A DNA stretch of 25,646 bases from a virus, in IMG/VR virus record IMGVR_UViG_3300025815_000096, positions 1 to 25,646 of that record. One strand, written 5' to 3'. Below, piece after piece: positions 2,362-18,620 of the stretch (position 1 is its first letter; each line of letters starts with the position of its first letter). A model generated the notes under the pieces. It did not search any database, was not told where the DNA came from, and saw nothing but the letters and a program-made list of their open reading frames with translations. The position numbers and the translations under genes were made by a program.

Positions 2362-3222
2362 TTATGTAATATGTTCTAGACGATTTTCTAAGTCTTCTAT
2401 TCTATAAGTTGCTTCTTGTAGAGCCGCCCAAAGAAGTGGGACCAAAGCCCCATAATCTACTGTTTGGTAAACGGGATTTCTTGCATCATCGACCCGATCT
2501 TTTTTACCTGTAACGGCGTATGCAGCAACTTTTTGAAGCTCATGTGCAAGAAACATATCTCTCTCAAATAACTCATCATGCTTAATACCCGTCTTAGGCT
2601 TTACGGACATTATCTTTTCTAGGGGTCTCTCGACTTCCCCGTGAATTGTCTTTGCGCGATAGTCGGAAGTTGTGTTGAATGCTGTAGCTGAAACAGAGGA
2701 GTCAAATGTACCCGTCCCAACAACAGATAAATTCCCGCCTATAGAAGCTCCTCCAGAAGTAAATAGATTTAACCACTTTTTGTTGGTTGTACCTAAACCA
2801 TAGGTGTCCGTATCTGCGAGATCTGGAACAATGGCGCTTTCTGATTTATTTATATGGACTAAAGGGTGCCATACTGCTGCTCCTGCTGTATTATCTACAC
2901 AAATATGCAATCTATCAGTAGATGTATTTACCCAAATACTTCCAACAGTATATCCGTCAGCTGAGTCATCCCCCGTAGTAGGATCAGTTGTGGCTGTATT
3001 GTTATTTTTCCCGCCAACTCCCCCATTAGCTGCTGGAAGATATCCACTCACAGATGAATTAAGAGGGATTTTAGGGCCATCTCCAGTAGCGCCTGTATGC
3101 GTATGACCTGTAGTTCCATCAAACGCACTTAAGAGCTGATTAAATTCATTATTAAGAGAGCTAGCTGTAATATCCAAAGACGGTTGAATAGCACTAGCTG
3201 ATTGTCTGGTGTAACCTGCCAT
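2362..3222 (-). CDS. Tail fibre protein with C-terminal S74 intramolecular chaperone
   Basis: 286 residues. The N-terminal part holds a fibre-like region with DGTTGHTHTGATGDGPKI (residues 35-52), a His-rich motif common in phage tail fibres, followed by a Ser/Gly/Thr-rich stalk and GNLSVVGTGTFDSSVSATAF. The C-terminal 100 residues match the Peptidase_S74 / endosialidase chaperone pattern: SDYRAK (Ser186, Lys191), then LEKIMSVKP, FLAHELQKV, VDYGALVPLLWAALQEA and a terminal coiled coil EDLENRLEHI. Such domains drive trimerisation of the fibre and then cut themselves off before the serine; Ser186 and Lys191 are consistent with the Ser-Lys dyad. It directly follows the nozzle gene (TAA touching ATG), with AGGA nine bases before the start. 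Small for a fibre, so it may be a short side fibre or tip adaptor. Domain call confident; role in host binding inferred. Confidence 0.88.
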   Translation of the reverse strand: MAGYTRQSASAIQPSLDITASSLNNEFNQLLSAFDGTTGHTHTGATGDGPKIPLNSSVSGYLPAANGGVGGKNNNTATTDPTTGDDSADGYTVGSIWVNTSTDRLHICVDNTAGAAVWHPLVHINKSESAIVPDLADTDTYGLGTTNKKWLNLFTSGGASIGGNLSVVGTGTFDSSVSATAFNTTSDYRAKTIHGEVERPLEKIMSVKPKTGIKHDELFERDMFLAHELQKVAAYAVTGKKDRVDDARNPVYQTVDYGALVPLLWAALQEATYRIEDLENRLEHIT

Positions 3223-4944: not shown

Positions 4945-5691
4945 TTAAAAACTCGCATTGATGGATTTATATAAAGGGGCGCTAGCTCCGCCGCCGAACT
5001 GTACTCGCGTATCCACTACGCCGCTAAACTTATTAATGTATTGGCTTTTTAGATCTGCTACAGCTTGCATAAAATTAGCCTTAGCTAACTGTGCAGCCTC
5101 TGGATTATCTTTCAACATATACATATGATAAAGAGCGCCTTCGATAATGGTAGGTTCCAAGGCGTTTGGGTATATTATGTTTCCTGTAATGGTATCATCA
5201 TAGTTAACCATTTCTAGAGGGTGTAAGTAGTACCTAAAGGTAATTCGATATGACTTGTCCGGAGCTGGACTTACGCCCCATCCCGTACCATGAGAAGGAA
5301 ATACATATTTTGGTATAGATATCCCATTAGTAGCATTATCATCGTCTCGATCTCTATGATATTTATACCACGTATCTGTACTAATGTATTGAAGTCTTTT
5401 ATTTTCAGTAGAGTAAGTGCCATCAGCTATAATCTGAAAACTATTCCATTCCATAGACTTCAATTCTACAGGATTTGAGTATTCAGTCTGACCTACGACT
5501 AGAGATGTTGCTTCCTCCGCCGCATTAAAGGGCCATTCGTACTGCATTGTGTTTAAATCAAATACGGCAGAGTTAATTGCGTCCTTGGCGGCAGCTTGTA
5601 TACCTCTAGCTGAAGCAAAATCCGTTGTACTTAACTCTACTTCATTAAGGCGTCTTAGAAGCCTATTTGTAAGATTGATGAATACAGTCAT
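4945..5691 (-). CDS. Head-to-tail adaptor / tail tubular protein A-like
   Basis: 248 residues. The helical N-terminus (NLTNRLLRRLNEVELSTTDF, then an Ala-rich helix and VFDLNTMQYEWPF) is followed by a beta-rich middle with VGQTEYSNP and VSPAPDKSYRITFRYYLHP. A C-terminal helical part (EPTIIEGALYHMYMLKDN...AQLAKANFMQAVADLKSQY) follows. This layout is characteristic of T7 gp11 / P22 gp4-type adaptors, which bind under the portal and create the platform for the nozzle. The neighbouring nozzle-like gene fits. Its ATG overlaps the upstream stop by one base (TAATG), indicating translational coupling with the long repeat protein. Family-level call good; no catalytic role expected. Confidence 0.8.
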   Translation of the reverse strand: MTVFINLTNRLLRRLNEVELSTTDFASARGIQAAAKDAINSAVFDLNTMQYEWPFNAAEEATSLVVGQTEYSNPVELKSMEWNSFQIIADGTYSTENKRLQYISTDTWYKYHRDRDDDNATNGISIPKYVFPSHGTGWGVSPAPDKSYRITFRYYLHPLEMVNYDDTITGNIIYPNALEPTIIEGALYHMYMLKDNPEAAQLAKANFMQAVADLKSQYINKFSGVVDTRVQFGGGASAPLYKSINASF

Positions 5692-8600
5692 TATGCGACC
5701 TTCTTAAACGGTGTTGTCGGTGTGGATGTGCTTGTGGTTTTAAACGGTGCAGAGGTAAGGTCTTGAGCTGTAGATGTGCTAAAGGGCGTTTCGTGTATCG
5801 CAGTGAACGTAAATACGCTTGTAGAAAAGCTTGTAGACGGTAGGCCTAATGTTCCACTAATATTTCCAAGATATACTATATTTGGAGATATACTGACTAT
5901 TGGGCTAATCTGTATTAATGCATCGGCTACTCTTACACGTTTACCATCAGTAGATGCACTTGAAGTAATAGTTTCAGAAGAACTGGTTTTTATAATTCTC
6001 TGAGTATGTATAGTATTTGAGATAGAAATACTGCCCGATATTACCGCATCGATGACGGTTCCAGTATAACCTTGAGCACCAAACGATACACTTACATTAC
6101 CAGCAATGTCGCCTGTTCTAACTCTAACAGCGGGTAGAGTTCCTGATGCGGTGATCAATCCACTCGCCGCACCATCATTTACGATCTCAGTTTTTGCTAC
6201 TGAACCCGTTGCTGAAACAGAACCAACCGCTGCGCCATCATTCAGTCTATCCGCATCTACCGTACCTGTGGCAACTACAGACCCGCTTGCACTGAAGTCT
6301 TTGATCCTATCGGCATCAACCGTACCTGTGACAGATATTGAGCCAGATGCTGGGGCGGCGAGATTTATATTACCACTTTGGCTGGTGGTTGATGATACAT
6401 CAGTCGATGCAGCGCCTACTCGTACTCTTCTAGCGTCTGTAGCGCTTGAGGAAGAGATTGATGCGGATGCGCTTGCTTCCCGTACCCTTGCAGGGTCAAC
6501 CGTGGCTGAAGAGGTTATTGTTGCGGCTGGAGCACCAATTGCTGTGATTTTACCATCAACGCCTGTCGAGACCGTAATATCTCTGCTTGCTTTACCAACT
6601 TTGATAATTGACTCAGCAACAGCAGTAATTTCCATCTCGTCGGTGATGGAGCCTTCAACCGCTAGTCGTCCAGACACAGACGCAGTGATGGCTTCTGACT
6701 GAGTAATAGCGCCCTCAACCGCCAATCTACCAGCGAATGTGCCAGTTACAGCAGCAGATTCAGTAATATCACCAGTAAAGACGAGTTTCGGGCGTAGAGA
6801 TGATGTGACTGAAACTGTCCCTACGGCCTCGACAGTGCTGATGACTTTTGCACTGACGCTAGAAGTCGATGTAATGTCTGCTGAAGCAGGAGACTTATGA
6901 CCTATTGCAGCAGTAACGCTGGAACTACTCGTTACGTCAGTTGAAACCCGTACCCGCTCAGTAATATCACCATCTATAGTCGAAGACGTTGTGATAGTGC
7001 CAGATGCACTTACTGGCTCAGTAATTCTCGCTGCAACACTAGAGGAGCTTGCAATTTCACCAGATACTCTGATGCCCTCATCTACGATTGCAGAGACTGT
7101 CGAAGTGACTGCTATCGTGCCAGAGATTTCAGACGCACGTTTCCGCTGATATACTGTGCTTGTGACAGTGTTTGTTGATGCCTCAACATCTGCCACCCTG
7201 ACCCGCAACGCATCCAGTGATGAGGATGCAGCAATTGTCCCAACAACATCTGCAACCTTAACAATTCTGGCAGAAACAGAACCCGACGAAGTGATACTAC
7301 CAGCCGCTGGTATGCCTTCATCATTGATAGCAGACACAGAGCTTGCGGTAGAAATACTTGCCGTTGCATCGACGGTGCGGATACTCCCAACAGACAAGTT
7401 GCTAGAAGATGATATTGATCCGGATGCTTCGACTGTGCGAATGCGGATGTAATCAGGGCTAGTTGTGGAAGTTACTGTCGCAGCAGCTTCACCGAGATTG
7501 ATCTTCTGCGCATCCACCGAAGTGGTAATACTTACATCGCCAAGAGGTACAAGGATATTTGCTTTCTGAGCATCGACAGAACTGGTTGTCGTTATTGTTC
7601 CAGTGGCGGCTGCATCAATCGCAGCAATTCGACCGTTTACTGACGCTGTGACATCTGAAGATTCAGTAATAGACCCTTCAACAGCCAGCCTTCCAGAAAC
7701 TGATCCTGTGACCGCCTCAGATTGTGTGATACTGCCACTAGCAGATTTTACAGCGGGGATAGTCGATTGTGTGACCGCATTGGAGCTTGTGATAGCTCCC
7801 TCAACAGCAAGCCTACCAGAAACTGATCCTGTAACTTCGGGGGTTTCGGTAATGTCTCCATCAACCGCAAGTCTACCAGAAGTCGATACTGTAACCGCTA
7901 TGGTTTCTGTGATGTCACCAGTAGTAGTTCCACGGGCAGTTGCAGAAGATGTTGCAGTTATTGATCCCGTTGCAGAAACTTCACGAATTAGGGTAGCAGC
8001 AAATGAGCTTGTAGAAGTTACTGTGGCAGCGGCATCGACAGTTGCTACTCTAATAGCATCTATTGAGGTGGTGGCTGCTACAGAAGCGCTGGCTGCCCCT
8101 AACCGTAATTTTTCACCAACGACACTTGAAGTGGATGCTACAGAACCAGACGCTTCAGCTACATTTATCTTCTGCGCATCGACGCTAGTTGTTGCTGCAA
8201 TTGAAGCGGCTGCATCAACTCCTCTGATCCGTACATAATCAAGTGCGGGAGTGACCGCTATTGTGCCAGATGCATCGTTATTACGGATGCGAATGCCGAC
8301 ATTAGCCGTAACAGTGTTCGAGGACGCTATGCCCGTGATTGTCCTGATGCGGATATAATCAACGGAGCTTGTGCTTGATACAGAAGCCAGAGCATCAGCA
8401 GTTTGGATCTTTTGATAATCTACGGAAGAGGTGCTTGCGATAGAAGCTGTTGCCGCCCCTTCTTTTAATCGATCTGCGTCAGTCGAAGTGGTACTAGAAA
8501 TTGTACCAGTAGCAGCGGCTGTAACGACCTTAATAGCGTCGATTGAGGCGCTGGAGGTAATTGTACCAGTTACGGAGCTATCAGTGGCGACCTCAGCATC

Positions 8601-8942
8601 TATGCTGGTTGTAGAAGCAATTGAAGCAGAACCATTCGCTACTCTCACTCTCACCGCATCGAGGCTTGTGGTGGAAGCTATAGACGCAGCACCTTCTGCA
8701 ACTCTGACCTTTAACGCATCGATGCTGGTTGTAGAGGAAGCTGATGCAGCAGCTTCAGCAGGTAGAACTTTAGCAGCATCGACTGTATTCGTAGCAGCCA
8801 CGGACGCACTTGCAGCGCCTTCCACAATGATTTCAGCCACAACAGCATTCGTAGACGTGATATTCGTAGAAGCGGATGCCTCCACAAAATTAGCGTCGAG
8901 CGCCCCTAAAGGAGCGGATGCTAATGGGTGAAATCCTAACAT
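5691..8942 (-). CDS. Giant Ser/Thr/Ala-rich repeat structural protein, possible fibre
   Basis: 1083 residues. The N-terminus MLGFHPLASAPLGALD is a type of start often seen in marine phage structural proteins. Residues about 20-1010 consist of roughly fifty repeats of about 20 residues. One subfamily is like EGAASIASTTSLDAVRVRVA; a second (GSVSGRLAVEGSITESSDVT) is concentrated at about 340-435 and 717-785. Hydrophobic residues alternate with Ser/Thr, so each unit could be two short beta-strands. This suggests a beta-solenoid or a string of beta-hairpins forming a long thin fibre. The last 70 residues are non-repetitive and rich in Pro, Phe, Ser and Thr. It lies between the FG-GAP genes and the adaptor gene, with AAAGG seven bases before the ATG and a one-base TAATG overlap downstream. 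No enzyme motif, membrane segment or cysteine pattern seen. Virion location and adhesion role are inferred. Confidence 0.75.
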   Translation of the reverse strand: MLGFHPLASAPLGALDANFVEASASTNITSTNAVVAEIIVEGAASASVAATNTVDAAKVLPAEAAASASSTTSIDALKVRVAEGAASIASTTSLDAVRVRVANGSASIASTTSIDAEVATDSSVTGTITSSASIDAIKVVTAAATGTISSTTSTDADRLKEGAATASIASTSSVDYQKIQTADALASVSSTSSVDYIRIRTITGIASSNTVTANVGIRIRNNDASGTIAVTPALDYVRIRGVDAAASIAATTSVDAQKINVAEASGSVASTSSVVGEKLRLGAASASVAATTSIDAIRVATVDAAATVTSTSSFAATLIREVSATGSITATSSATARGTTTGDITETIAVTVSTSGRLAVDGDITETPEVTGSVSGRLAVEGAITSSNAVTQSTIPAVKSASGSITQSEAVTGSVSGRLAVEGSITESSDVTASVNGRIAAIDAAATGTITTTSSVDAQKANILVPLGDVSITTSVDAQKINLGEAAATVTSTTSPDYIRIRTVEASGSISSSSNLSVGSIRTVDATASISTASSVSAINDEGIPAAGSITSSGSVSARIVKVADVVGTIAASSSLDALRVRVADVEASTNTVTSTVYQRKRASEISGTIAVTSTVSAIVDEGIRVSGEIASSSSVAARITEPVSASGTITTSSTIDGDITERVRVSTDVTSSSSVTAAIGHKSPASADITSTSSVSAKVISTVEAVGTVSVTSSLRPKLVFTGDITESAAVTGTFAGRLAVEGAITQSEAITASVSGRLAVEGSITDEMEITAVAESIIKVGKASRDITVSTGVDGKITAIGAPAATITSSATVDPARVREASASASISSSSATDARRVRVGAASTDVSSTTSQSGNINLAAPASGSISVTGTVDADRIKDFSASGSVVATGTVDADRLNDGAAVGSVSATGSVAKTEIVNDGAASGLITASGTLPAVRVRTGDIAGNVSVSFGAQGYTGTVIDAVISGSISISNTIHTQRIIKTSSSETITSSASTDGKRVRVADALIQISPIVSISPNIVYLGNISGTLGLPSTSFSTSVFTFTAIHETPFSTSTAQDLTSAPFKTTSTSTPTTPFKKVA
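5912..8885 (-). repeat. About 50 tandem 20-residue (about 60-base) coding repeats
   Basis: The coding region shows a recurring 60-base unit encoding patterns like ASIASTTSxDAxRVRVAEG. A second unit type encoding SGRLAVEGxITxS is visible at DNA level as recurrent CAACCGC-like blocks near 6651-6780 and 7671-7900. Units vary in sequence, so this is an old, diverged array rather than a recent perfect expansion. The Ser/Thr/Ala-rich codon pattern also keeps the opposite strand open over long stretches, which explains the antisense reading frames there. Confidence 0.75.
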
Positions 8943-8952
8943 AAGTTAGCCT

Positions 8953-10758
8953 TTAACCTTCAACAAAAACGTAAACAGAACCTGCATTGCTGGCAGTAGT
9001 GTCTTCCTCATTAGCGCCTACTATCGCCGTACTTCCATCGCCAGACATAGATACGGCAACGCCAAATTTATCATTACTTCCCGCATTACTTGCGAGTAGT
9101 TGATCTTGCTCAGTCCAAGTGGTCCCTGATCTCGTAAAGACATAAGCAGCGCCAGAGTCATTTGGAACAGTGTCTTCGTAAGCTGCTCCTACTATTGCCG
9201 TATCTCCATCACTAGAGATACCTACAGATATCCCAAAATAATCAAATGCTGCCCCATCACTTGCCGTTAGTTTAGCTTCTTGGGACCAAGTTGTGCCTGA
9301 TCTAGTGAAGATGTAAGCAGCGCCAGCGCCATCTGCGGCCTCATCTTCCAAATAAGCACCTGATATTATATTATCCCCATCTCCAGAAACACGCACATAC
9401 TTTCCGAAGAAATCAGATCCTTGCGCATCGCTTGCTTGTATTTTTGCCTCTTGAGACCATGTTGAGCCTGATCTAGTGAAAATATAAACCGAACCAGCAT
9501 TCGATGCTGTAGTATCTTCGTTGGGCGCACCTACTACTGCCGTGTTTCCATCGTTAGAGATAGACACATCTTCTCCAAATTTATCACTTGCTTGGTCATC
9601 ACTTGCCACTATTTTAGCTTCTTGGGACCAAGTTGTGCCTGATCGAGTGAAAATATACGCAGATCCAGCATCCCCGCCACCAGTATCTTCGTTGGGCGCA
9701 CCCACTATTGCCGTGTTTCCGTCACTATCTATGGAGACAGCATATCCGAAATAATCACTAGCCCCTGCATTAGAGGCAATTATTTTAGCTTCTTGGGTCC
9801 ACGTTGTGCCTGATCTGGAGAAGATATACGCAGCGCCAGCATCTGTGCCACCAGCGTCTTCCAAACGTGCTCCTACTATTGCGTAGGTGCCATCAGCGGA
9901 AATATCTACACTCCAACCAAAGTAATCACTCCCTGCTCTATCAGTGGCGTATATTTTTTGCTCCTCAGACCAAGTTGTGCCTGATCTAGTGAAGATGTAA
10001 GCAGCGCCAGATGCTGACCCTCCAACGTCTTCCAAATAAGCCCCTACTATGATTCTGTTTCCATCACTGGAGCTAGATACAGAATATCCAAAATAATCAG
10101 TGGCCGCTGCATCAGAAGCCTGTAACTGAGCCTGTTGTGAAGCGTTTGCCCAACTTAAAAATGCTATGCTAAAGCTATGACTCACATTGGACACATTTGT
10201 CCCGTCAGACACATCAAAACGAATTGTTACAGTCCCGCCCGTTGCAGATGCTGGGGTTAAGGTGAAGACATTACTGCTTTGGTTTGTTACAGGGAAGCTG
10301 GGGGAGCTAATTACGTTAGTCGCCGTGCCGCTTGTAACAGTAGCAGAGTAAGTGAGAGTTTCTAGGTCAGCATCAGATGCGTTGATTGTAATAACCGTAT
10401 TGCTTCCCGCCGTAAGCGTGAAAGTACCATCAGCGGTGAGGTTGTTAGCCCCAGCGCCGCCTGTATTCTCAGAGAAGCTATCAATAGTGGGCGCTACGTT
10501 TGTAATACTGGCAAGCAAGTAGAACCCAGAGGTTTGCTTCACATACAGCCTATTATTATCCGTTTCGTAGTGAAGCGTCCCTTCATCGGCACTTGCGGCA
10601 TCGGTTAACATCGCCGCCTGATTTGCATGAACAGTTACGCCGCTTCCAGAGCTATCTGCAAACTGAACTCCACCAGAGCCTGTGCTTTGAAGAACCTGAC
10701 CGCTTGTGCCATCATCTAGGGCGGCGGCTAGGGCGCTGAGATTGGAATTATTGCTCAT
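8953..10758 (-). CDS. FG-GAP seven-bladed propeller protein, third paralogue
   Basis: 601 residues. The N-terminus has a tail-fibre linker (GTSGQVLQSTGSGGVQFADS, 17-36) and GSGVTV. Next comes a short module ending FYLLASITNVAPTIDSF, a cadherin/Ig-like domain (about 88-200, with TVITINASDADLETLTYS and VSDGTN), and seven FG-GAP repeats (202-601). Blades are about 57 residues, for example WSQEAKIQASDAQGSDFFG to GAAYIFTRSGTT. FG-GAP repeats form the integrin-alpha beta-propeller, used for ligand binding and often Ca2+-dependent; seven is the number needed to close one propeller. There is no signal peptide. AAAGG lies seven bases before the ATG. It is the shortest of three tandem paralogues and lacks the long N-terminal module of the first. 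Likely a tail or capsid appendage binding a host surface ligand; the ligand is unknown. Confidence 0.85.
   Translation of the reverse strand: MSNNSNLSALAAALDDGTSGQVLQSTGSGGVQFADSSGSGVTVHANQAAMLTDAASADEGTLHYETDNNRLYVKQTSGFYLLASITNVAPTIDSFSENTGGAGANNLTADGTFTLTAGSNTVITINASDADLETLTYSATVTSGTATNVISSPSFPVTNQSSNVFTLTPASATGGTVTIRFDVSDGTNVSNVSHSFSIAFLSWANASQQAQLQASDAAATDYFGYSVSSSSDGNRIIVGAYLEDVGGSASGAAYIFTRSGTTWSEEQKIYATDRAGSDYFGWSVDISADGTYAIVGARLEDAGGTDAGAAYIFSRSGTTWTQEAKIIASNAGASDYFGYAVSIDSDGNTAIVGAPNEDTGGGDAGSAYIFTRSGTTWSQEAKIVASDDQASDKFGEDVSISNDGNTAVVGAPNEDTTASNAGSVYIFTRSGSTWSQEAKIQASDAQGSDFFGKYVRVSGDGDNIISGAYLEDEAADGAGAAYIFTRSGTTWSQEAKLTASDGAAFDYFGISVGISSDGDTAIVGAAYEDTVPNDSGAAYVFTRSGTTWTEQDQLLASNAGSNDKFGVAVSMSGDGSTAIVGANEEDTTASNAGSVYVFVEG
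8956..10155 (-). repeat. Seven FG-GAP repeats, third paralogue
   Basis: Residues 202-601 divide into seven units of 61, 57, 57, 57, 57, 57 and 54 residues. Each has the order W(S/T)(Q/E) - xASD - FG - V.IS.DG..AIVGA - ED - GAAYIFTRSGTT. The last unit stops at the final strand (GSVYVFVEG), so the array closes exactly at the C-terminus. Confidence 0.88.
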
Positions 10759-10761
10759 AGC

Positions 10762-12588
10762 TTAACCTTTGACAAAAATGTACCCAGCGTCAGCATTATA
10801 AGCACCTATAATTGCTGAATCGCCATCGCTGATAGAAACGCTAGCCCCAAAAAATTTACCAATCGCTGCATCACTGGCGTATACTTTTGACTCTTGAGAC
10901 CACGTTGTTCCCGACCTACTATAGAAATACGCTGCACCACCATTGCTATAACCTGATCCAGCGTCAAGACGAGCGCCAGCAAGAAACAGATCCCCATCAC
11001 TATTGATAGACACATCAAATCCAAAATTATTAGCGGTTGAATCAGGGTTTGCTATGACCTGTTGCTGAGACCATGTTGAACCTGATCTTGTGAAAATATA
11101 TACCTGAACAGCATAAGAGCCTACGATAGCGTAGTTACCATCTTCATTAAGATCCAAAGACCTCCCAAACTGATCACTCTGCTGCGCATTACTAGCTGTT
11201 AACTTAGCTTGCTGAGACCATGTTGAGCCAGAACGGGTGAAGACATAAGCAGCGCCTTGATCAGTGTAGGTACTATCATCAAGGTGCGCCCCTACAAGTA
11301 GCGTATTTCCATCGCCAGAAAGAGCGACATCAAATCCAAAATTATCATTAGCCGCTTTATCACTAGCTGTTAACTTAGCTTGCTGGGACCATGATGTGCC
11401 AGAACGGGTGAAGATATATACAGCCCCAGCATCTGTGTAGGTAGCATCTATATATGGAGACGCTACTGCTACTGTATTCCCATCATCAGATATAGCGACC
11501 TTGTACCCAAGTTGATCACTAGCCGCTAGATCATTAGGCTTCAATTTTGCTTGCTGAGACCATGATGTTCCTGATCTGACGAAAACATAAGCTGCGCCTG
11601 AGTCTGAATAGGTCGTGTCTTCTGCGCTAGCGCCAATTATTGCTGTATCGCCATCACTATCTAAAGCGACATTCTCCCCAAAAAAGTTGTAAGTTGCTGC
11701 ATCACTAGCTGTTAACTTAGCTTGCTGAGACCATGATGTCCCTGACCTGACATAAACATAAGCTGCACCAGCATATTGTGAGGGGGAGTCATGCAAACGA
11801 GCGCCTACAATAGCATAATTTCCATCAGTGGAGATATAACTAGACCATCCAGCATAATCACCCGCTGCTGTATCAGAACCCACCAATTTAGCTTGTTGCG
11901 AAGCCCCAGACCAACTTGCAAAGTTCAAAGTAAAGGTTGTTGAATTATCAACAGAAGTATTGACACCATCTGTTACTGAAAAGGTCACTGCAAAAGTTCC
12001 ACCACTTGGGGCAGTTGTTGAGGAACTGGGCGTAAGTGTGAATACGTTAGAGGACTGAGAAATTGTGGCTAGGACAGTGCTTGTATCGGTGCTTGTCGTG
12101 ATGTTTACCGAACCACCCCCATCAGTAAGCGAAGCTGAGAAAGCTGTACTTGTACCTGCTGCTGCCGACCACGTTAGATCATCTGCTTCTGGATCAGGGT
12201 CAACCGATCCCGTAACACTGCTAGTCGTAGTGCCATTGTCTGCAAGTGTGTAAGCAGAAGATGTTCCACTACCACCACCAGAGATAGCTATAGAAACCGA
12301 CTGTGGCCCTTGGTTCGTAACCGTAGCAATCAAATACCAACCCGCCGCCTTGCGAACAAAGATTTTATTCAAATCTGTTACGAGCGCCATATCCCCAGCA
12401 GAAGGGCTACTGATAGCCCCTAAAGCAGTTAGGCTTTCAACAACAGTTACGCTTGAACCCGCATCGCCGAACTCCAAGCCATCCGCACCCGTATTCACAA
12501 CAATCGCCTGACCCGCACTTCCCAAGGAGGTAGGTAAAGAGGTAGCTATCGATTGAGCTACGTTTCCAAGATCTCTACTTTTAGTCAT
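10762..12588 (-). CDS. FG-GAP seven-bladed propeller protein, second paralogue
   Basis: 608 residues, starting MTKSRDLGNVAQSIATSLPT. The linker motif GSAGQAIVVNTGADGLEFGD (23-42) and VTVVESLTALG follow, then GWYLIATVTNQGP. An Ig/cadherin-like domain (about 95-224) includes NVFTLTPSSS and VTFSVTDGVNTS. Seven FG-GAP repeats occupy 225-608. Blades five and seven are shortened (49 and 46 residues) by loss of the loop between the VG strand and the YIF strand. The protein is clearly homologous to its neighbours on both sides and like them has no signal peptide. The ATG at 12588 has only a weak GGGG upstream, so translation may depend on coupling with the upstream gene eight bases away. Same inferred role as the paralogues: ligand-binding appendage on the virion. 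Confidence 0.85.
   Translation of the reverse strand: MTKSRDLGNVAQSIATSLPTSLGSAGQAIVVNTGADGLEFGDAGSSVTVVESLTALGAISSPSAGDMALVTDLNKIFVRKAAGWYLIATVTNQGPQSVSIAISGGGSGTSSAYTLADNGTTTSSVTGSVDPDPEADDLTWSAAAGTSTAFSASLTDGGGSVNITTSTDTSTVLATISQSSNVFTLTPSSSTTAPSGGTFAVTFSVTDGVNTSVDNSTTFTLNFASWSGASQQAKLVGSDTAAGDYAGWSSYISTDGNYAIVGARLHDSPSQYAGAAYVYVRSGTSWSQQAKLTASDAATYNFFGENVALDSDGDTAIIGASAEDTTYSDSGAAYVFVRSGTSWSQQAKLKPNDLAASDQLGYKVAISDDGNTVAVASPYIDATYTDAGAVYIFTRSGTSWSQQAKLTASDKAANDNFGFDVALSGDGNTLLVGAHLDDSTYTDQGAAYVFTRSGSTWSQQAKLTASNAQQSDQFGRSLDLNEDGNYAIVGSYAVQVYIFTRSGSTWSQQQVIANPDSTANNFGFDVSINSDGDLFLAGARLDAGSGYSNGGAAYFYSRSGTTWSQESKVYASDAAIGKFFGASVSISDGDSAIIGAYNADAGYIFVKG
10765..11916 (-). repeat. Seven FG-GAP repeats, second paralogue, two contracted
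   Basis: Residues 225-608 divide into seven units of 61, 57, 57, 57, 49, 57 and 46 residues. Unit five (11074-11220) goes straight from AIVGSYAVQVYIF, without the usual ED...AGAAY loop. Unit seven (10765-10902) ends GAYNADAGYIFVKG, also shortened. The number of blades is nevertheless the same seven as in the paralogues. Confidence 0.85.
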
Positions 12589-12595
12589 TCAATTT

Positions 12596-15592
12596 TTACC
12601 CCGGGACAAAAACATAAACTGAGCCAGAATTTGTTGCAGTGGTGTCTTCCAAATGAGCACCTACAATAACCGTGTCGCCATCTGAGGAAATAGTGACCGC
12701 TGAGCCGAACATATCACTAGATTCTGGATCACTGGCTTTTAGTTTTGCTTGTTGAGACCAAGTCGTACCTGATCTGGTGAAAACATAAGCTGCACCAGAG
12801 TCTGTCGCAGTGGTGTCGTCATATAAACAACCTATGATGGCGATATCCCCATCGCCAGAAATAGCGACAGAATTTCCAAAATAATCATTAGCGTCTGCAT
12901 CACTGGCCTGTAGTTTGGCTTGTTGGGACCAAGTCGTACCAGAACGTGTAAAGATATAAGCGGAGCCAGCGTTTGTTGCAGTGGTGTCTTCATATCTCGA
13001 ACTTATGACGGCGGTGTTTCCATCTGAATCAATAGAGACAGAATACCCGAAATAATCACTAGATTCTGCATCACTGGCTTGTAGTTTTGCTTGTTGAGAC
13101 CAAGTCGTACCAGAACGTGTAAAGATATAAGCGGAGCCAGCGTCTGTTGCCGTGGTGTCTTCGGCAAAAGAGCTTATAATGGCTGTATTACCATCGTCTG
13201 ATAGAGAAAGAGACATCCCAAATTGGTCACTAGCTTCTGCATCACTGGCCTGTAGTTTGGCTTGTTGACCCCATGATGTCCCTGATCTGGTGAAAACATA
13301 AACAGAGCCAGCATTTGATCCATTAGTGTCTTCCGTATTAGCACCTACAATAGCTGTATCGCCATCGTCTGATATAGCAACAGCCCGCCCAAAAGAATCA
13401 CCAGCTTGTGCATCACTGGCTTGTATCTTAGCTTGTTGAGACCACGTTGTGCCTGATCGTGTAAATATGTAGGCAGCGCCAGCGTCTGATGCAGTAGTGT
13501 CTTCTTGGAGCGCACCCATGATGACTGTATTTCCATCGTCTGATATAGCGACAGAACATCCAAAGTTGTCATACGCTTGTGGATCACTTGCCTTTAGTTT
13601 TGCTTGTTGAGACCAAGTCGTACCAGAACGTGTTAATATATAGGCAGCGCCGTTGTGTGTGTCAGTGGTAGAATCATATTTCGCACCTACAATAGCCGTG
13701 TTGCCATCTGAAGAAATAGAGAGAGCCTCTCCAAACCACGTACCATTAGCATCACTGGCTTGTATTTTGGCTTGTTGAGTGGCGTTTGCATAACTTATAA
13801 AGGACAAGGAAAATGCTGCTACAGATGTCGCTGCGTTAATATTATCCGACACAGTAAAAGTTAAACTAAAAGTCGTGGCATTCGAAGCATGAGGGGTAAT
13901 AGTGAACACATTCTCACTCGCACCCGTGCCTTGGGTTACTGTGGTGCCATTTAAACTGCCTGACGTAACGCTGTAAGAGTATACCAGATCTGTGCCTTCA
14001 TCTGCATCAGAGGCCGTGACCGTAATAACGGTATTAGTGCCACCAGTTAAAGTAAACGGTGTGGTGTTGCTCGAAGCATCCGCTACACTAGAAATAGTTG
14101 GAGTAGTATTGATAACCGCAATCCTGTACCACCCATTACCGTTGTTTTGGTAAAGTGACGTGTTGGCGGAGACATATGCAAGATCACCCGCTGACGGGCT
14201 AGAGGCGTTTAGCAAGTAAGTGGCACCAGAAGGAGTGCCATCAGTGCCAGACAGACCTGTGTAGACTGTTACCCCAGAGCCGCTAGCGTCTGCGAACTCA
14301 AGGGCGGTAGCCCCAGAATTGACTTGTAGAATTTGTCCCGCTGTTCCTAGTGAACTAGGCGTGTCGGTTAATCCTATAAGGGTGCCACTATCTGCCAACG
14401 CCCCATGCTCAACCACCTCAATCTTATCGCCAGTTGTAGGGCTTGAGTTGGTGAGGTCTATTGTTGTGCCGTTGCTTGCGGTGTAGTCGGTGCCGCTCAA
14501 AAGTTTCACGCCATTAAGATAGATCGCCACCTTATTAGCAGTGTAATTTGTGGTGAGGACTTTCGTAGACGTGTTGTACTCTGAGGATGTTCCGACTGTA
14601 AAAACGGTAGAAGAATAAGGAGAAGCAAAAGGTGTTCCGTATTCGACGACAGTAACAATATCCGAGGCGGCACAAGCAGAACCTAAGACTACAGAAGTGC
14701 CATTCGTGGCGGTGAAATCTGAGGCTGCGAGTTTAGCCCCGTTCAGAAATACGCTGATGCTTCCGACTGTATAGCCGACCGTAAAAGTGGTCGTTGCGGA
14801 ACCTGTGAACTCAGTCTGCTTTACTGGATCAGTCAGTGTGCCAGAGATGCTAGAACCGCTGATTGTGATTGTTTTTGTAGCGCCCGTACCTGTGGCTTGA
14901 ACCCCTGCTCCAGCAAAGTTGAGAGTAGTTGCTGTGGTGGTGAGCGCACTACCTTCGTCTTGTACTGTGATACCGCCAGATGCAGTGCTACTGATTGTCC
15001 CATCGGCAGCAATTGTAATGTTGTTTCCAGCGGTTAGCGCTGCCACGACATTGGTGGTATCAGTGACATCTGCTGAGGCTTCTACACCATCTAACTTTGT
15101 TTTATCGGCGGCACTCATTAGCCCAGCGGCTGAAGTGGTAGCGTTGGAATAAGTCGTGATGTCGCTGTAATTAGCGACCTTAACCCAGCTACCACTATGA
15201 GCAAAATATAGCGCCCCTTCACCATGCACATGATAGATGCGCCCGTGGTTGTCAGATGCTGATGGAAGATCCGAAGTGCTAGAGAATGCTTCTACAATTT
15301 GAATATCTTGAAATGCGGGTGTTAAAAAAACGGTATGCGTCCCACTCGCCAAACTCAAAAGAGAGCCTGTGCTAGAAGAACGCAGTGACCGTGTTAGATT
15401 TAATGAGGAGTGTGTATATGTGCCTGTGCCGATTTCCCACGCAGACCCACTCTCAATTACATATCCGACAGTCTCCCCATCTAATGAGGATGGGAATGCC
15501 TGATAGCCCGACACAGCAGTAGATGAGAGTGTAATCGCACCTGTACCCGTCGAGGTCGAGGTGACCTTAACCCGATCCGCAAATTGAGGCAT
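12596..15592 (-). CDS. Large tail-fibre protein with C-terminal FG-GAP seven-bladed propeller, first paralogue
   Basis: 998 residues and modular. Residues 1-100 (FADRVKVTSTSTGTGAITLS and onward) are a common N-terminal module of marine phage fibres. TSAAGLMSAADKTKLDGVEA (153-172) is a classic fibre motif. Two copies of a VFLNGAKL/VAIYLNGVKL module follow at about 265-320 and 330-400. Next is the linker SLGTAGQILQVNSGATALEF (414-433), GWYRIAVINTTPTISS, a cadherin/Ig-like domain (about 500-598, with ITVTASDADEGTDLVYSY), and seven FG-GAP repeats (600-998). Only this paralogue carries the fibre N-terminus, so it is the best candidate to be anchored directly to the virion. The start has AAGGA six bases upstream and follows the 371-aa gene by nine bases. 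Host-receptor binding through the propeller is inferred. Confidence 0.87.
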   Translation of the reverse strand: MPQFADRVKVTSTSTGTGAITLSSTAVSGYQAFPSSLDGETVGYVIESGSAWEIGTGTYTHSSLNLTRSLRSSSTGSLLSLASGTHTVFLTPAFQDIQIVEAFSSTSDLPSASDNHGRIYHVHGEGALYFAHSGSWVKVANYSDITTYSNATTSAAGLMSAADKTKLDGVEASADVTDTTNVVAALTAGNNITIAADGTISSTASGGITVQDEGSALTTTATTLNFAGAGVQATGTGATKTITISGSSISGTLTDPVKQTEFTGSATTTFTVGYTVGSISVFLNGAKLAASDFTATNGTSVVLGSACAASDIVTVVEYGTPFASPYSSTVFTVGTSSEYNTSTKVLTTNYTANKVAIYLNGVKLLSGTDYTASNGTTIDLTNSSPTTGDKIEVVEHGALADSGTLIGLTDTPSSLGTAGQILQVNSGATALEFADASGSGVTVYTGLSGTDGTPSGATYLLNASSPSAGDLAYVSANTSLYQNNGNGWYRIAVINTTPTISSVADASSNTTPFTLTGGTNTVITVTASDADEGTDLVYSYSVTSGSLNGTTVTQGTGASENVFTITPHASNATTFSLTFTVSDNINAATSVAAFSLSFISYANATQQAKIQASDANGTWFGEALSISSDGNTAIVGAKYDSTTDTHNGAAYILTRSGTTWSQQAKLKASDPQAYDNFGCSVAISDDGNTVIMGALQEDTTASDAGAAYIFTRSGTTWSQQAKIQASDAQAGDSFGRAVAISDDGDTAIVGANTEDTNGSNAGSVYVFTRSGTSWGQQAKLQASDAEASDQFGMSLSLSDDGNTAIISSFAEDTTATDAGSAYIFTRSGTTWSQQAKLQASDAESSDYFGYSVSIDSDGNTAVISSRYEDTTATNAGSAYIFTRSGTTWSQQAKLQASDADANDYFGNSVAISGDGDIAIIGCLYDDTTATDSGAAYVFTRSGTTWSQQAKLKASDPESSDMFGSAVTISSDGDTVIVGAHLEDTTATNSGSVYVFVPG
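12599..13795 (-). repeat. Seven FG-GAP repeats, first paralogue
   Basis: Residues 600-998 divide into units of 60, 57, 57, 57, 57, 57 and 54 residues. Units two to seven are very similar to each other (for example WSQQAKLQASDAESSDYFGY) and to those of the other two genes, also at DNA level. They include recurrent stretches encoding SGTTWSQQAKLQASD. The 171-base period makes this a plausible substrate for homologous recombination. Confidence 0.88.
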
Positions 15593-15601
15593 GGGAAATC
15601 C

Positions 15602-16717
15602 TTAGTCTAGGGCTATAGAGATCGAACCAGCGGGAAAACGCAAAGTATCGCCGCTACCAATTGTTTTAGTGGCATCCAAAGCACCGATAAAAAACGGGCG
15701 GCGCTGAGAAACTGTGGCGTTTCCACTGCCAGTACCGAGTGTAACTCCAGATCCAGCAGGGTACTTTGGATATCGGTTTTGTGCTTGATAAGTTGCGGTT
15801 CCAATTTTGTCACCACCACAAAAAATAGCAAAATGGGTTAGGTCTCCCCAGCTATTGGTAGCCTCTGGAAACTCTACCGCATTGGAATTTGTAATTGTTG
15901 TGGTTCCATTCGAAGTGGACGCCGCACTGAACTCAATTTGGGGTCGTGTGTACCCATAGAGTGAATAAAATGAGAGGTTGGAAGCAGTACCACCACCATA
16001 TCCGGGTTCTTGAGAACCCGCATCATCCTCACTATTAGCCCCACCGCTACCAAACGCTGACGTGGATACGCCCAACCAAAAGCGTTTGTTGTTTGCAGTC
16101 CCGTCTTGAAATTCCCATGTAGAATATGTAGATCCAAGCGGCGTATTACCACCGTCTAAACCCATCAAATTAAGGTGATATTTCGAAAAAAGGCCATCGC
16201 CATTAGTGTTAAGATTGTTACTTGAATATTGCAGCACATTAGGAAGAGTTATATCGAAATCACCCGAAGCAATTCTAAACTGATCCCCAACATTTGTTGT
16301 CACAGCGGCACTAAATGACCCAATCATTAGGGGCTTCTGTCCGTTATCAGCATCGATAGTAGATGAAGATGTGCCGTTGGAGGGAAGCGCATCTTCATAC
16401 AAAGCCCAATAGCCAATATCTCCCCAGTTGGAAGTCGTAGCTTCGGGAAAACTTATTTGGGAATTATTTGTAGACCCCGCATTGTAAGTGCTTGTATCAT
16501 TGAAATTATTAAATACGTTGACCCGACTGTAGCCGTTGCCGTTGTAGGTTGTGCCAGATGATCCGGGTTCTTTTGCCAGTGCTTGCGAAGCCGTATCCGA
16601 CTCCGAAAACGCTGTTGTAGAGAGACCCAGATAAAGTGACGTGAGTTTTGTCATCTCAGTCACTCCGAAGATGTGATCCAGCAGCTTCCGCTCCATGAAA
16701 TCCGTCAGAATAGCCAT
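15602..16717 (-). CDS. Structural protein with two copies of the EFPEAT domain
   Basis: 371 residues made of two related halves (about 1-158 and 180-371). Each half begins with a strand of the type YLGLSTTAF or FWLGVSTSAF. Each then has SFPEATTSNWGD (89-100) or EFPEATNSWGD (282-292), and ends in GDQFRIASGDFDITL or GDTLRFPAGSISIALD. The same signatures occur once in the neighbouring 131-aa protein, so it looks like a duplicated and fused version of that. The N-terminus MAILTDFMERKLLDHIFGV matches the usual start of small phage structural proteins of this kind. I recall the family as widespread in tailed phages, but its exact role (capsid decoration, fibre base or connector) is not known to me. 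AGGAGA lies eight bases before the ATG. Virion component inferred from context. Confidence 0.7.
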   Translation of the reverse strand: MAILTDFMERKLLDHIFGVTEMTKLTSLYLGLSTTAFSESDTASQALAKEPGSSGTTYNGNGYSRVNVFNNFNDTSTYNAGSTNNSQISFPEATTSNWGDIGYWALYEDALPSNGTSSSTIDADNGQKPLMIGSFSAAVTTNVGDQFRIASGDFDITLPNVLQYSSNNLNTNGDGLFSKYHLNLMGLDGGNTPLGSTYSTWEFQDGTANNKRFWLGVSTSAFGSGGANSEDDAGSQEPGYGGGTASNLSFYSLYGYTRPQIEFSAASTSNGTTTITNSNAVEFPEATNSWGDLTHFAIFCGGDKIGTATYQAQNRYPKYPAGSGVTLGTGSGNATVSQRRPFFIGALDATKTIGSGDTLRFPAGSISIALD

Positions 16718-16732
16718 CTGGCACTCTCCTAA

Positions 16733-17128
16733 TTAGTCGATGTTGATGTCCAGATCCCCTGCTGGGATGCGGAAGATGTCGCCCGAAGCGATTGCTTTGT
16801 CTGTTGTTAGCTGCGCATGTGCGATCATATCGCTCGCTGTGCCGCCTGTTGATGCTGGCATAATCATTACTGCTACGACTGTGCCATAGGACGCTGTGGC
16901 CTCTGGGAACTCAATCGCAGACGAGTTGGACGCATTGTTGCCAGAAACCGTGAAAGTCACGGACTGACGGGCATATGCTGTTCCAGAGGTTGATACCTCA
17001 GTTCCCAGAGCGGAATCTGTGGGATCAGTTGTGCAAAGCGCCACGTACCAACTTGTTGGGCGAGTAACGCTATCTGTGGTTAAAAGATATTTGAGAGTAT
17101 GTGTCTCAAAGCTATCAGAAAGTGACAT
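16733..17128 (-). CDS. Small structural protein, single EFPEAT domain
   Basis: 131 residues. The pattern SWYVALCTTDPTDSALGTEVS, then YARQSVTFTVSG, EFPEATASYG (73-82) and SGDIFRIPAGDLDI (115-128) is that of a small phage protein family often seen near capsid or tail genes. It is beta-rich with no signal peptide or membrane helix. The neighbouring 371-aa protein carries two more copies of this domain. A strong Shine-Dalgarno (GAGGAG) sits six bases before the ATG, and the gene follows the 124-aa gene by ten bases. Likely a virion protein; capsid decoration or fibre attachment are both possible. Confidence 0.7.
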   Translation of the reverse strand: MSLSDSFETHTLKYLLTTDSVTRPTSWYVALCTTDPTDSALGTEVSTSGTAYARQSVTFTVSGNNASNSSAIEFPEATASYGTVVAVMIMPASTGGTASDMIAHAQLTTDKAIASGDIFRIPAGDLDINID

Positions 17129-17138
17129 GAGCTTCTCC

Positions 17139-17513
17139 TCAGATTGTCATTGAAAATGAGGAGACCCTAACACTGTCTCCTACAACTAGGTTTGCGTTGG
17201 AGAGAACGAGGTCACCACCACCGTTCAATCCACTTACTGTGCCAGAGAAAATCTCTTGGCCTTCTGTATTGAACACTTTAAAAATAGAAGCGGTCCCAGC
17301 ATTAACAGTGTTATCTCTAGTAACTGTATTTGCTAGGACCGTTCCATTATTCGCTGGCCCAAAGGCCGGATTGGATAAGGGCAACGTGGCTAACTCAGTA
17401 TTGGAACTATCCAGTATTTGCACAGAACCTGCTGAGCCAGTTCCTAAATCTATTAGATCTACAATACCATCCAAAGCAGCATTTCTAGCGGCTACGGTTA
17501 GCGTAATAGACAT
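17139..17513 (-). CDS. Small beta-rich structural protein after the capsid gene
   Basis: 124 residues, MSITLTVAARNAALDGIVDL at the start, followed by short strands such as SVQILDSSNTELATLPLS and a Gly-rich end (VSGLNGGGDLVLSNANLVVG). It directly follows the major capsid gene, a position commonly used for decoration or head-completion proteins. I have seen similar short proteins in other marine phages but cannot name a family or function with confidence. AAAAGG lies upstream of the ATG. No cysteines, signal peptide or membrane segment. Confidence 0.6.
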   Translation of the reverse strand: MSITLTVAARNAALDGIVDLIDLGTGSAGSVQILDSSNTELATLPLSNPAFGPANNGTVLANTVTRDNTVNAGTASIFKVFNTEGQEIFSGTVSGLNGGGDLVLSNANLVVGDSVRVSSFSMTI

Positions 17514-17528
17514 TGCCCTTAACCTTTT

Positions 17529-18620
17529 CTACGCAGCGTTGTAACGAGCGGTTACAATTGCTTCTGGTCTCAGGATCTTGCGACCATAGAGGTGCATACC
17601 TCTACAGATGTCACTAAATGAGTCTGGGTCACGATAGGTCTCAACCTTGTTAAGCTGTTCTGCTGTAGCAACTGCTGAGCTATGACCTGCAACTAGCACT
17701 CCGTAGTTGTCGTCCTGCGCCGTAGTTCCAGTGGTTCCGGCTCCCGTACCTACTGATGGCAGGTTTGAGCTTTGGTATACTTTGAAACCGTGGAAGTTGT
17801 TTACGACCAAACCATTCCGAAGACCACCGGACTCGCCCCAATCGGCTTGCATGAATCGTGAGTCTTCGTCACGAAGGATTTCCATGAAAATTGGGTCTAC
17901 AACGAGCCATCTTGAATCACGGTCAACTTGTTGTTGATCGAGAAGACGCGCCATACGTGCTACAAGCATAGCTGGCGAAATGGTTGTTGTTGGAAGTGCC
18001 GTTGCACCCGGAAGACGGGCAGCAATTGGAATTGAATCACCTGTTGTGCTAGCAGATGCTGCCGTAGTGATATTTCCAAAATTTGCCATAAATAACTTAT
18101 TTGCAGCGAGTAATTCGTCGTTACCCGCGCTTGTGTTAGCCTTCGTGCCGTTCACATCACCTGATGCTGAGCGTACTGCGCTGGCATTTGCATGCAGTGC
18201 AGATTGCTTGTAACCAGACAAGTAACCTAGTACTTCTTGGTCATGCTGATCGGCGAGTCGATAGGCTGCTCGATCAACCGCAAGTTGCATGAAATTGATG
18301 TGACTGTGAGCTTCCTCGATGTCATCCAATTTGAACGCAAAGTAGTTAGCCTTATCGATGACCAGTTGGAAGTCATCATCTTGGAGATCTTGTGTCGTAA
18401 TTGAAGTGCCGCGCTTCAGTTCACTAACTGAAATATTTGGCTCCTTCATTATGCGAACCGTATCCCCTGCTGAGGCAATCTCTCCGAAATAATCAGAGTT
18501 TGTGATATCGCCTACAACTGTAGATTTGCGGAACTCCAGCTGGACCTTTTTTGAAAAAATGGTTGGACTGAAGTTTCCATTGGGTAAGTTTGTATACCCA
18601 CTTGCTGATGAAAATGCCAT
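17529..18620 (-). CDS. Major capsid protein (HK97 fold)
   Basis: 363 residues starting MAFSSASGYTNLPNGNFSPT. The N-terminal part has an extended-loop region (GDTVRIMKEPNISVSELKRG), then FQLVIDKANYFAFKLDDIEE and a helix running through HSHINFMQLAVDRAAYRLAD, the likely spine helix. A later stretch (SRWLVVDPIFMEILRDEDSR, then GFKVYQSSNLP) fits the capsid P-domain and A-domain strands. It forms the icosahedral shell. Length and order fit capsid proteins of marine podoviruses. The preceding gene looks like a scaffold, and a promoter and folded leader lie just upstream. A strong GGAGG seven bases before the ATG suits the high expression needed. No protease domain is fused, so maturation cleavage, if any, would need another protein. 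Confidence 0.88.
   Translation of the reverse strand: MAFSSASGYTNLPNGNFSPTIFSKKVQLEFRKSTVVGDITNSDYFGEIASAGDTVRIMKEPNISVSELKRGTSITTQDLQDDDFQLVIDKANYFAFKLDDIEEAHSHINFMQLAVDRAAYRLADQHDQEVLGYLSGYKQSALHANASAVRSASGDVNGTKANTSAGNDELLAANKLFMANFGNITTAASASTTGDSIPIAARLPGATALPTTTISPAMLVARMARLLDQQQVDRDSRWLVVDPIFMEILRDEDSRFMQADWGESGGLRNGLVVNNFHGFKVYQSSNLPSVGTGAGTTGTTAQDDNYGVLVAGHSSAVATAEQLNKVETYRDPDSFSDICRGMHLYGRKILRPEAIVTARYNAA

Follow-up and report, generated by a model that had tools for sequence, protein, structure and literature searches.

Since three adjacent genes of a marine viral genome fragment each seemed to end in a block of seven FG-GAP repeats, we wondered whether their products close into integrin-like rings and what such rings would do for a phage. 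The window, i.e. the whole stretch of DNA that was analysed, is a linear virus record of 25.6 kb (25,646 nt). Its portal protein shares 76% identity over 90% of its length with that of Roseobacter phages CRP-738 and CRP-235, and 58% identity with that of Puniceispirillum phage HMO-2011, which identifies the window as a fragment of an HMO-2011-type podovirus. For this marine virus of bacteria, a host among the Rhodobacteraceae is a reasonable inference.

The minus strand carries, in order, the portal gene, two unassigned genes, a scaffold-like gene, the capsid gene, the gene of a 124-aa structural protein, two Gp80-like genes, the three tandem genes under study (A, B, and C, for the 998-, 608-, and 601-aa products), the gene of a 1083-aa repetitive protein, tail protein genes, a tail-fibre gene, an acyltransferase gene, an unassigned gene, and an endolysin gene (Table 1). 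A, B, and C thus sit among virion structural genes and share their strand with the genes for portal, capsid, tail, and endolysin. The segment that holds them, with capsid and tail genes on either side, is a variable island. It is absent from the two closest isolates, CRP-738 and CRP-235, in which the gap between capsid and tail genes measures 58 and 54 bp, respectively. A search of related phage contigs, a check suggested in the first-pass annotation, recovered the entire three-gene block in contig L009 (99.86% identity to the window), C and most of B in L010 (99.96% identity), and A plus its upstream genes in L024. Because these contigs carry the same genes, an assembly error does not explain the block.

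Table 1. Coordinates of the island, its borders, and the parts of the three FG-GAP proteins in the window.
Feature	Position	Strand	Remarks
Tail protein, downstream island border	4945..5691	-	PHROG 10775
1083-aa protein, directly downstream of the array	5691..8942	-	~20-residue period
Putative adhesin C, 601 aa	8953..10758	-	linker/aromatic/Ig module 1-201, propeller 202-601
Propeller of C	8953..10155	-	seven repeats; ring closed in the model; best integrin Z 41.4
Stalk module of C	10156..10758	-	65-87% protein identity in relatives; DNA homology to LamG-tipped contigs ends near 10171
Putative adhesin B, 608 aa	10762..12588	-	linker/aromatic/Ig module 1-224, propeller 225-608
Propeller of B	10762..11916	-	seven repeats (5th and 7th short); ring closed in the model; best integrin Z 41.4
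Putative adhesin A, 998 aa	12596..15592	-	fibre modules 1-~410; linker, aromatic, and Ig/cadherin-like part ~411-600; FG-GAP propeller ~601-998
Propeller of A	12596..13792	-	7 FG-GAP_2 repeats
Gp80-like protein, 371 aa, upstream in the island	15602..16717	-	Pfam Gp80, E 3e-29
Gp80-like protein, 131 aa	16733..17128	-	Pfam Gp80, E 7e-32; PDB 8jou_a, E 0.0016
124-aa protein	17139..17513	-	PHROG 3758 'virion structural protein', with a phage 7-7-1 virion structural protein as a relative
Major capsid protein, upstream island border	17529..18620	-	–

Repeat architecture and predicted fold

The positions, strand, and lengths given for the three genes in the first-pass annotation proved exact, and its count of seven C-terminal FG-GAP repeats in each product was borne out. 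The Pfam profile FG-GAP_2 (PF14312; gathering cut-off 23 bits) matched seven stretches in each protein, with E-values of 6.6e-109, 1.1e-81, and 1.6e-109 and whole-protein scores of 356, 269, and 358 bits for A, B, and C, respectively. These scores place all three proteins in the family and exclude a chance origin of the repeats. A search at the DNA level found exactly 21 matches in the window, all above the curated cut-off. The repeat period was mostly 57 residues, and the arrays ended 3-6 residues short of the stop; the 5th and 7th blades of B were shortened, yet present. Upstream of the propellers, the linker, the aromatic module, and the Ig/cadherin-like domain that had been described as common to the three products could indeed be aligned among them, the match to Cadherin_5 being weak (window member E 0.001, below the cut-off; best member E 3.3e-5). 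The roughly 410 additional N-terminal residues of A consist of other fibre modules. The DxDxDG motif had no occurrence in A, B, or C by pattern count, and integrin-type calcium binding is therefore unsupported for these proteins.

It had also been proposed that each array closes into one complete ring, and AlphaFold2 models of B and C, built from small alignments of window and related sequences, agree with this proposal. Mean pLDDT was 79 for C and 81 for B, with the propeller blocks mostly at 85-98 and values below 50 at the extreme N-termini (residues 1-44 in B and 1-39 in C). Counted from the strand lists, both models contain 28 strands per ring, which corresponds to seven four-stranded blades. 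The first strand (residues 207-212 in C and 230-235 in B) is placed so as to complete the last blade in the classic style of ring closure, a pairing that was read from strand order rather than from coordinates. In VIA-align, C (residues 204-601) and B (residues 227-608) matched integrin-alpha propellers over the whole ring (Z ~38-41, rmsd 2.6-3.1 over 342-366 residues), and C also matched integrin alpha-M by sequence (E 7e-7). B and C are thus predicted to form closed, integrin-alpha-like propellers of seven four-stranded blades. For C, the top 50 Foldseek matches did not include the integrins that VIA-align did recover. Against viral models, Foldseek returned many relatives, including collagen-repeat proteins of giant viruses and a protein of Cyanophage S-TIM5.

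Seven repeats are the rule in relatives. Among loci fetched from viral contigs, FG-GAP repeats were found in 92 distinct ORFs, 73 of them complete; exactly seven repeats were detected in 54 of the 73 and fourteen in three, the others having 18 or 1-6, where counts below seven may include divergent repeats missed by detection. Tandem propeller genes also occur elsewhere: three in L050, four in L067 (one with six detected repeats), and two in L119. The products of the tandem genes in L050 and L067 share an N-terminal sequence of their own, a different one, which suggests more than one origin of such tandem arrays. Many viral contigs contain FG-GAP propellers, and annotated phages and giant viruses have them as well. 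The description of the three-gene apparatus as unusual must therefore be tempered.

Tip exchange at a fixed junction

An indication of function came from relatives of C. In seven contigs (L014, L015, L016, L099, L100, L104, and L105), DNA homology to the gene of C (74-83%) stopped at gene nt 588, just before the stalk/propeller junction at nt 603 and the propeller start at nt 604. L098 and L015 are one contig, of which only L015 was counted, and since L099 and L100 look closely related, the independent cases number fewer than seven. In the four pairs tested, protein identity across the junction dropped from 83-88% over the last 60 stalk residues to 23-28% over the next 60. Past the junction, a LamG domain (PF13385) was present in all five contigs typed with Pfam (L014, L015, L016, L099, and L105), the tips of L100 and L104 lying outside the scan. 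A conserved stalk is thus combined with an exchanged tip. Pfam placed LamG in stalk-bearing proteins of L011, L013, L014, L015, L016, L099, L105, L110, L112, L135, and L137, with three LamG stretches in every scanned protein except that of L014, which has two; LamG/ConA-like tips come in threes much as the propellers come in sevens. Tip sets can also differ between close relatives: the capsid protein of L031 is 100% identical to that of the window, yet in this contig the A-slot gene is shorter and lacks a propeller, the B-type tip is another one, and only one propeller gene is present.

Swapping of tips at a fixed junction is the pattern expected of host-recognition tips, and most likely the propellers are swappable heads of this kind. 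The N-terminal fibre or linker part would attach each protein to the particle, the aromatic module and Ig/cadherin-like domain would form a stalk, and the C-terminal seven-bladed propeller would be the distal binding head. The array may be seen as a set of slots in which stalks persist and tips change, the tips alternating between seven-blade FG-GAP propellers, LamG/ConA-like lectin domains (mostly three), and other domains. In the window phage, propellers would occupy all three slots, presumably as related heads with different loops and possibly different ligands. A propeller and a lectin on the same stalk amount to a natural swap experiment, which makes the receptor-binding role directly testable.

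Placement and function of the proposed adhesins

We consider it probable that A, B, and C are adhesins on fibres of the tail or neck, with receptor-binding tips that can be exchanged. The first-pass annotation had favoured such a receptor-binding role, and both the LamG exchange and the position between capsid and tail genes point in the same direction. Against this reading, the propellers have no close homologue in any isolate of the HMO-2011-type group. Furthermore, their best annotated homologues are the 'FG-GAP repeat protein' of Vibrio phage nt-1 and a 'virion structural protein and packaging' entry of Cyanophage S-TIM5, and these sit among non-structural or unknown genes, so that the FG-GAP fold is not confined to tail-fibre loci.

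A possible, although less favoured, alternative is that A, B, and C form fibres at the capsid vertices or at the head/neck, for reversible sticking to cells, flagella, or particles, rather than being receptor-binding proteins of the tail. This must be taken seriously because of the neighbours of the array and of weak profile matches. The island follows immediately on the capsid gene, and its first genes include members of the Gp80 family (podophage GP4 fiber I; 8jou_a) and one for the 124-aa neighbour, a relative of a virion structural protein of phage 7-7-1. Weak matches to Pfam Phage_head_fibr, over only ~50 residues, occur in the A-slot relatives from L106, L112, L119, and L137. In addition, a separate tail-fibre gene (2362-3222) has relatives in both isolates. 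Tail genes form the other border of the island, however, and the exchange with lectin domains points to specificity. In any case, a head or neck location would alter the site of the adhesins more than their function.

Several observations concern these neighbours. The Gp80-family pair (15602-17128) lies directly upstream of the array, whereas Gp80 (PF23140) did not appear in the Pfam listings of A, B, and C. In some related islands (L017, L110, and L119), no match to the pair was seen. The neck fibre of A-1(L) (PMC10966104), considered as a lead for Gp80, had only its gene number in common and was discarded. The 1083-aa protein matches itself at 31% at a lag of 20 residues and gave no match by tblastn in the phage collection, nor in PDB, Pfam, or PHROG; it is possibly an extended fibre component, and its relatives hold the same position in related contigs (e.g. 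L012 and L105). In its N-terminus, the tail-fibre-like protein shares 49% identity with the tail-fibre proteins of CRP-738 and CRP-235, which are larger. Since the window protein has only 286 aa, receptor binding may have shifted to the island. RCA phages and HMO-2011 were reported to differ in their tail-fibre genes (PMC6918029). Next to it lies an acetyltransferase gene (1860-2318; PHROG 1249); the products encoded at this location in the isolates are annotated as 'putative toxin-activating lysine-acyltransferase' (CRP-235) and 'putative acyltransferase' (CRP-738).

We regard it as unlikely that the propellers are polysaccharide-degrading enzymes resembling tailspike depolymerases. Many enzymes are indeed beta-propellers, and Foldseek gave sialidases among the weaker matches of C, but integrins were the best whole-domain matches, and the Pfam scan (E<=1) gave none of the three proteins a glycosidase or lyase domain.

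Among known systems, the integrin alpha-subunit shares the seven FG-GAP-type repeats and the ring match, but A, B, and C lack DxDxDG and a beta subunit and would sit on a phage fibre; by prediction, the fold of the integrin-alpha head is here used as a fibre tip. The FG-GAP_2 proteins of bacteria and viruses (Vibrio phage nt-1, Cyanophage S-TIM5, and giant viruses) have the same repeat family and fold, whereas here three stalk-linked tips adjoin capsid and tail genes. Matches in annotated phage records all fall short of 80% coverage of protein A. The receptor-binding protein of phi11 has a five-bladed propeller, and PRD1 P2 and the seven-bladed gp131C of phiKZ are mentioned in the same study (PMC4901313). 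These systems likewise have a beta-propeller, there in a host-recognition or baseplate-periphery protein, but the proteins, compared by description only, are not called FG-GAP in that study. FG-GAP repeat genes of Mantoniella virus MntV1 were proposed to act in host attachment (PMC11467894); both viruses encode FG-GAP proteins, but MntV1 is a eukaryotic giant virus. FG-GAP propellers are themselves not new in viruses, as annotated phage records already bear the name, whereas their use as phage receptor-binding proteins or fibre tips was not found in the literature searched, which included few subscription journals. Our data would thus connect a widespread but little-described family of viral proteins with the recognition of hosts by an abundant group of marine phages.

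Loop variability and blade evolution

Among close relatives, sequence variation was concentrated in two of the four loop classes, D-A and B-C, and in the positions next to them; mean column entropy was 1.5-1.8 for these two classes and 0.6-0.9 for A-B and C-D. In propellers generally, D-A and B-C loops share one face, which is the ligand face in integrins. The same face may bind the receptor in A, B, and C, although loop variability is partly expected in any propeller.

Fourfold silent sites matched at 44-53% between blades within a gene and at 33-39% between sister genes, against 27-28% expected from composition. In a comparison that used a score cut-off, a blade-position signal was absent for A-B (p 0.40) and B-C (p 0.62) and weak for A-C (p 0.025). 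The likeliest reading is that blades were homogenised or amplified within each gene, without recent gene triplication; this remains suggestive, because shared codon bias would raise both silent-site figures. A more far-reaching idea is that one virion displays three different integrin-like heads with slot-specific surface ligands, and that these heads vary through replacement of entire tips and through homogenisation of blades within genes. We hold this to be rather doubtful at present; if true, it would allow host-range change without a dedicated diversity-generating system.

A recent tandem triplication that left the three genes without separate roles is very improbable: the genes are adjacent and alike in architecture, and the C propeller shares 62% identity with the A propeller and 51% with the B propeller, but between-gene silent matches lie near the expected level and below the within-gene level, blade order lends it no support in two of the three pairs, and the C stalk shares only 44% identity with the A stalk and 37% with the B stalk, while being far closer to its relatives in other contigs (Table 1).
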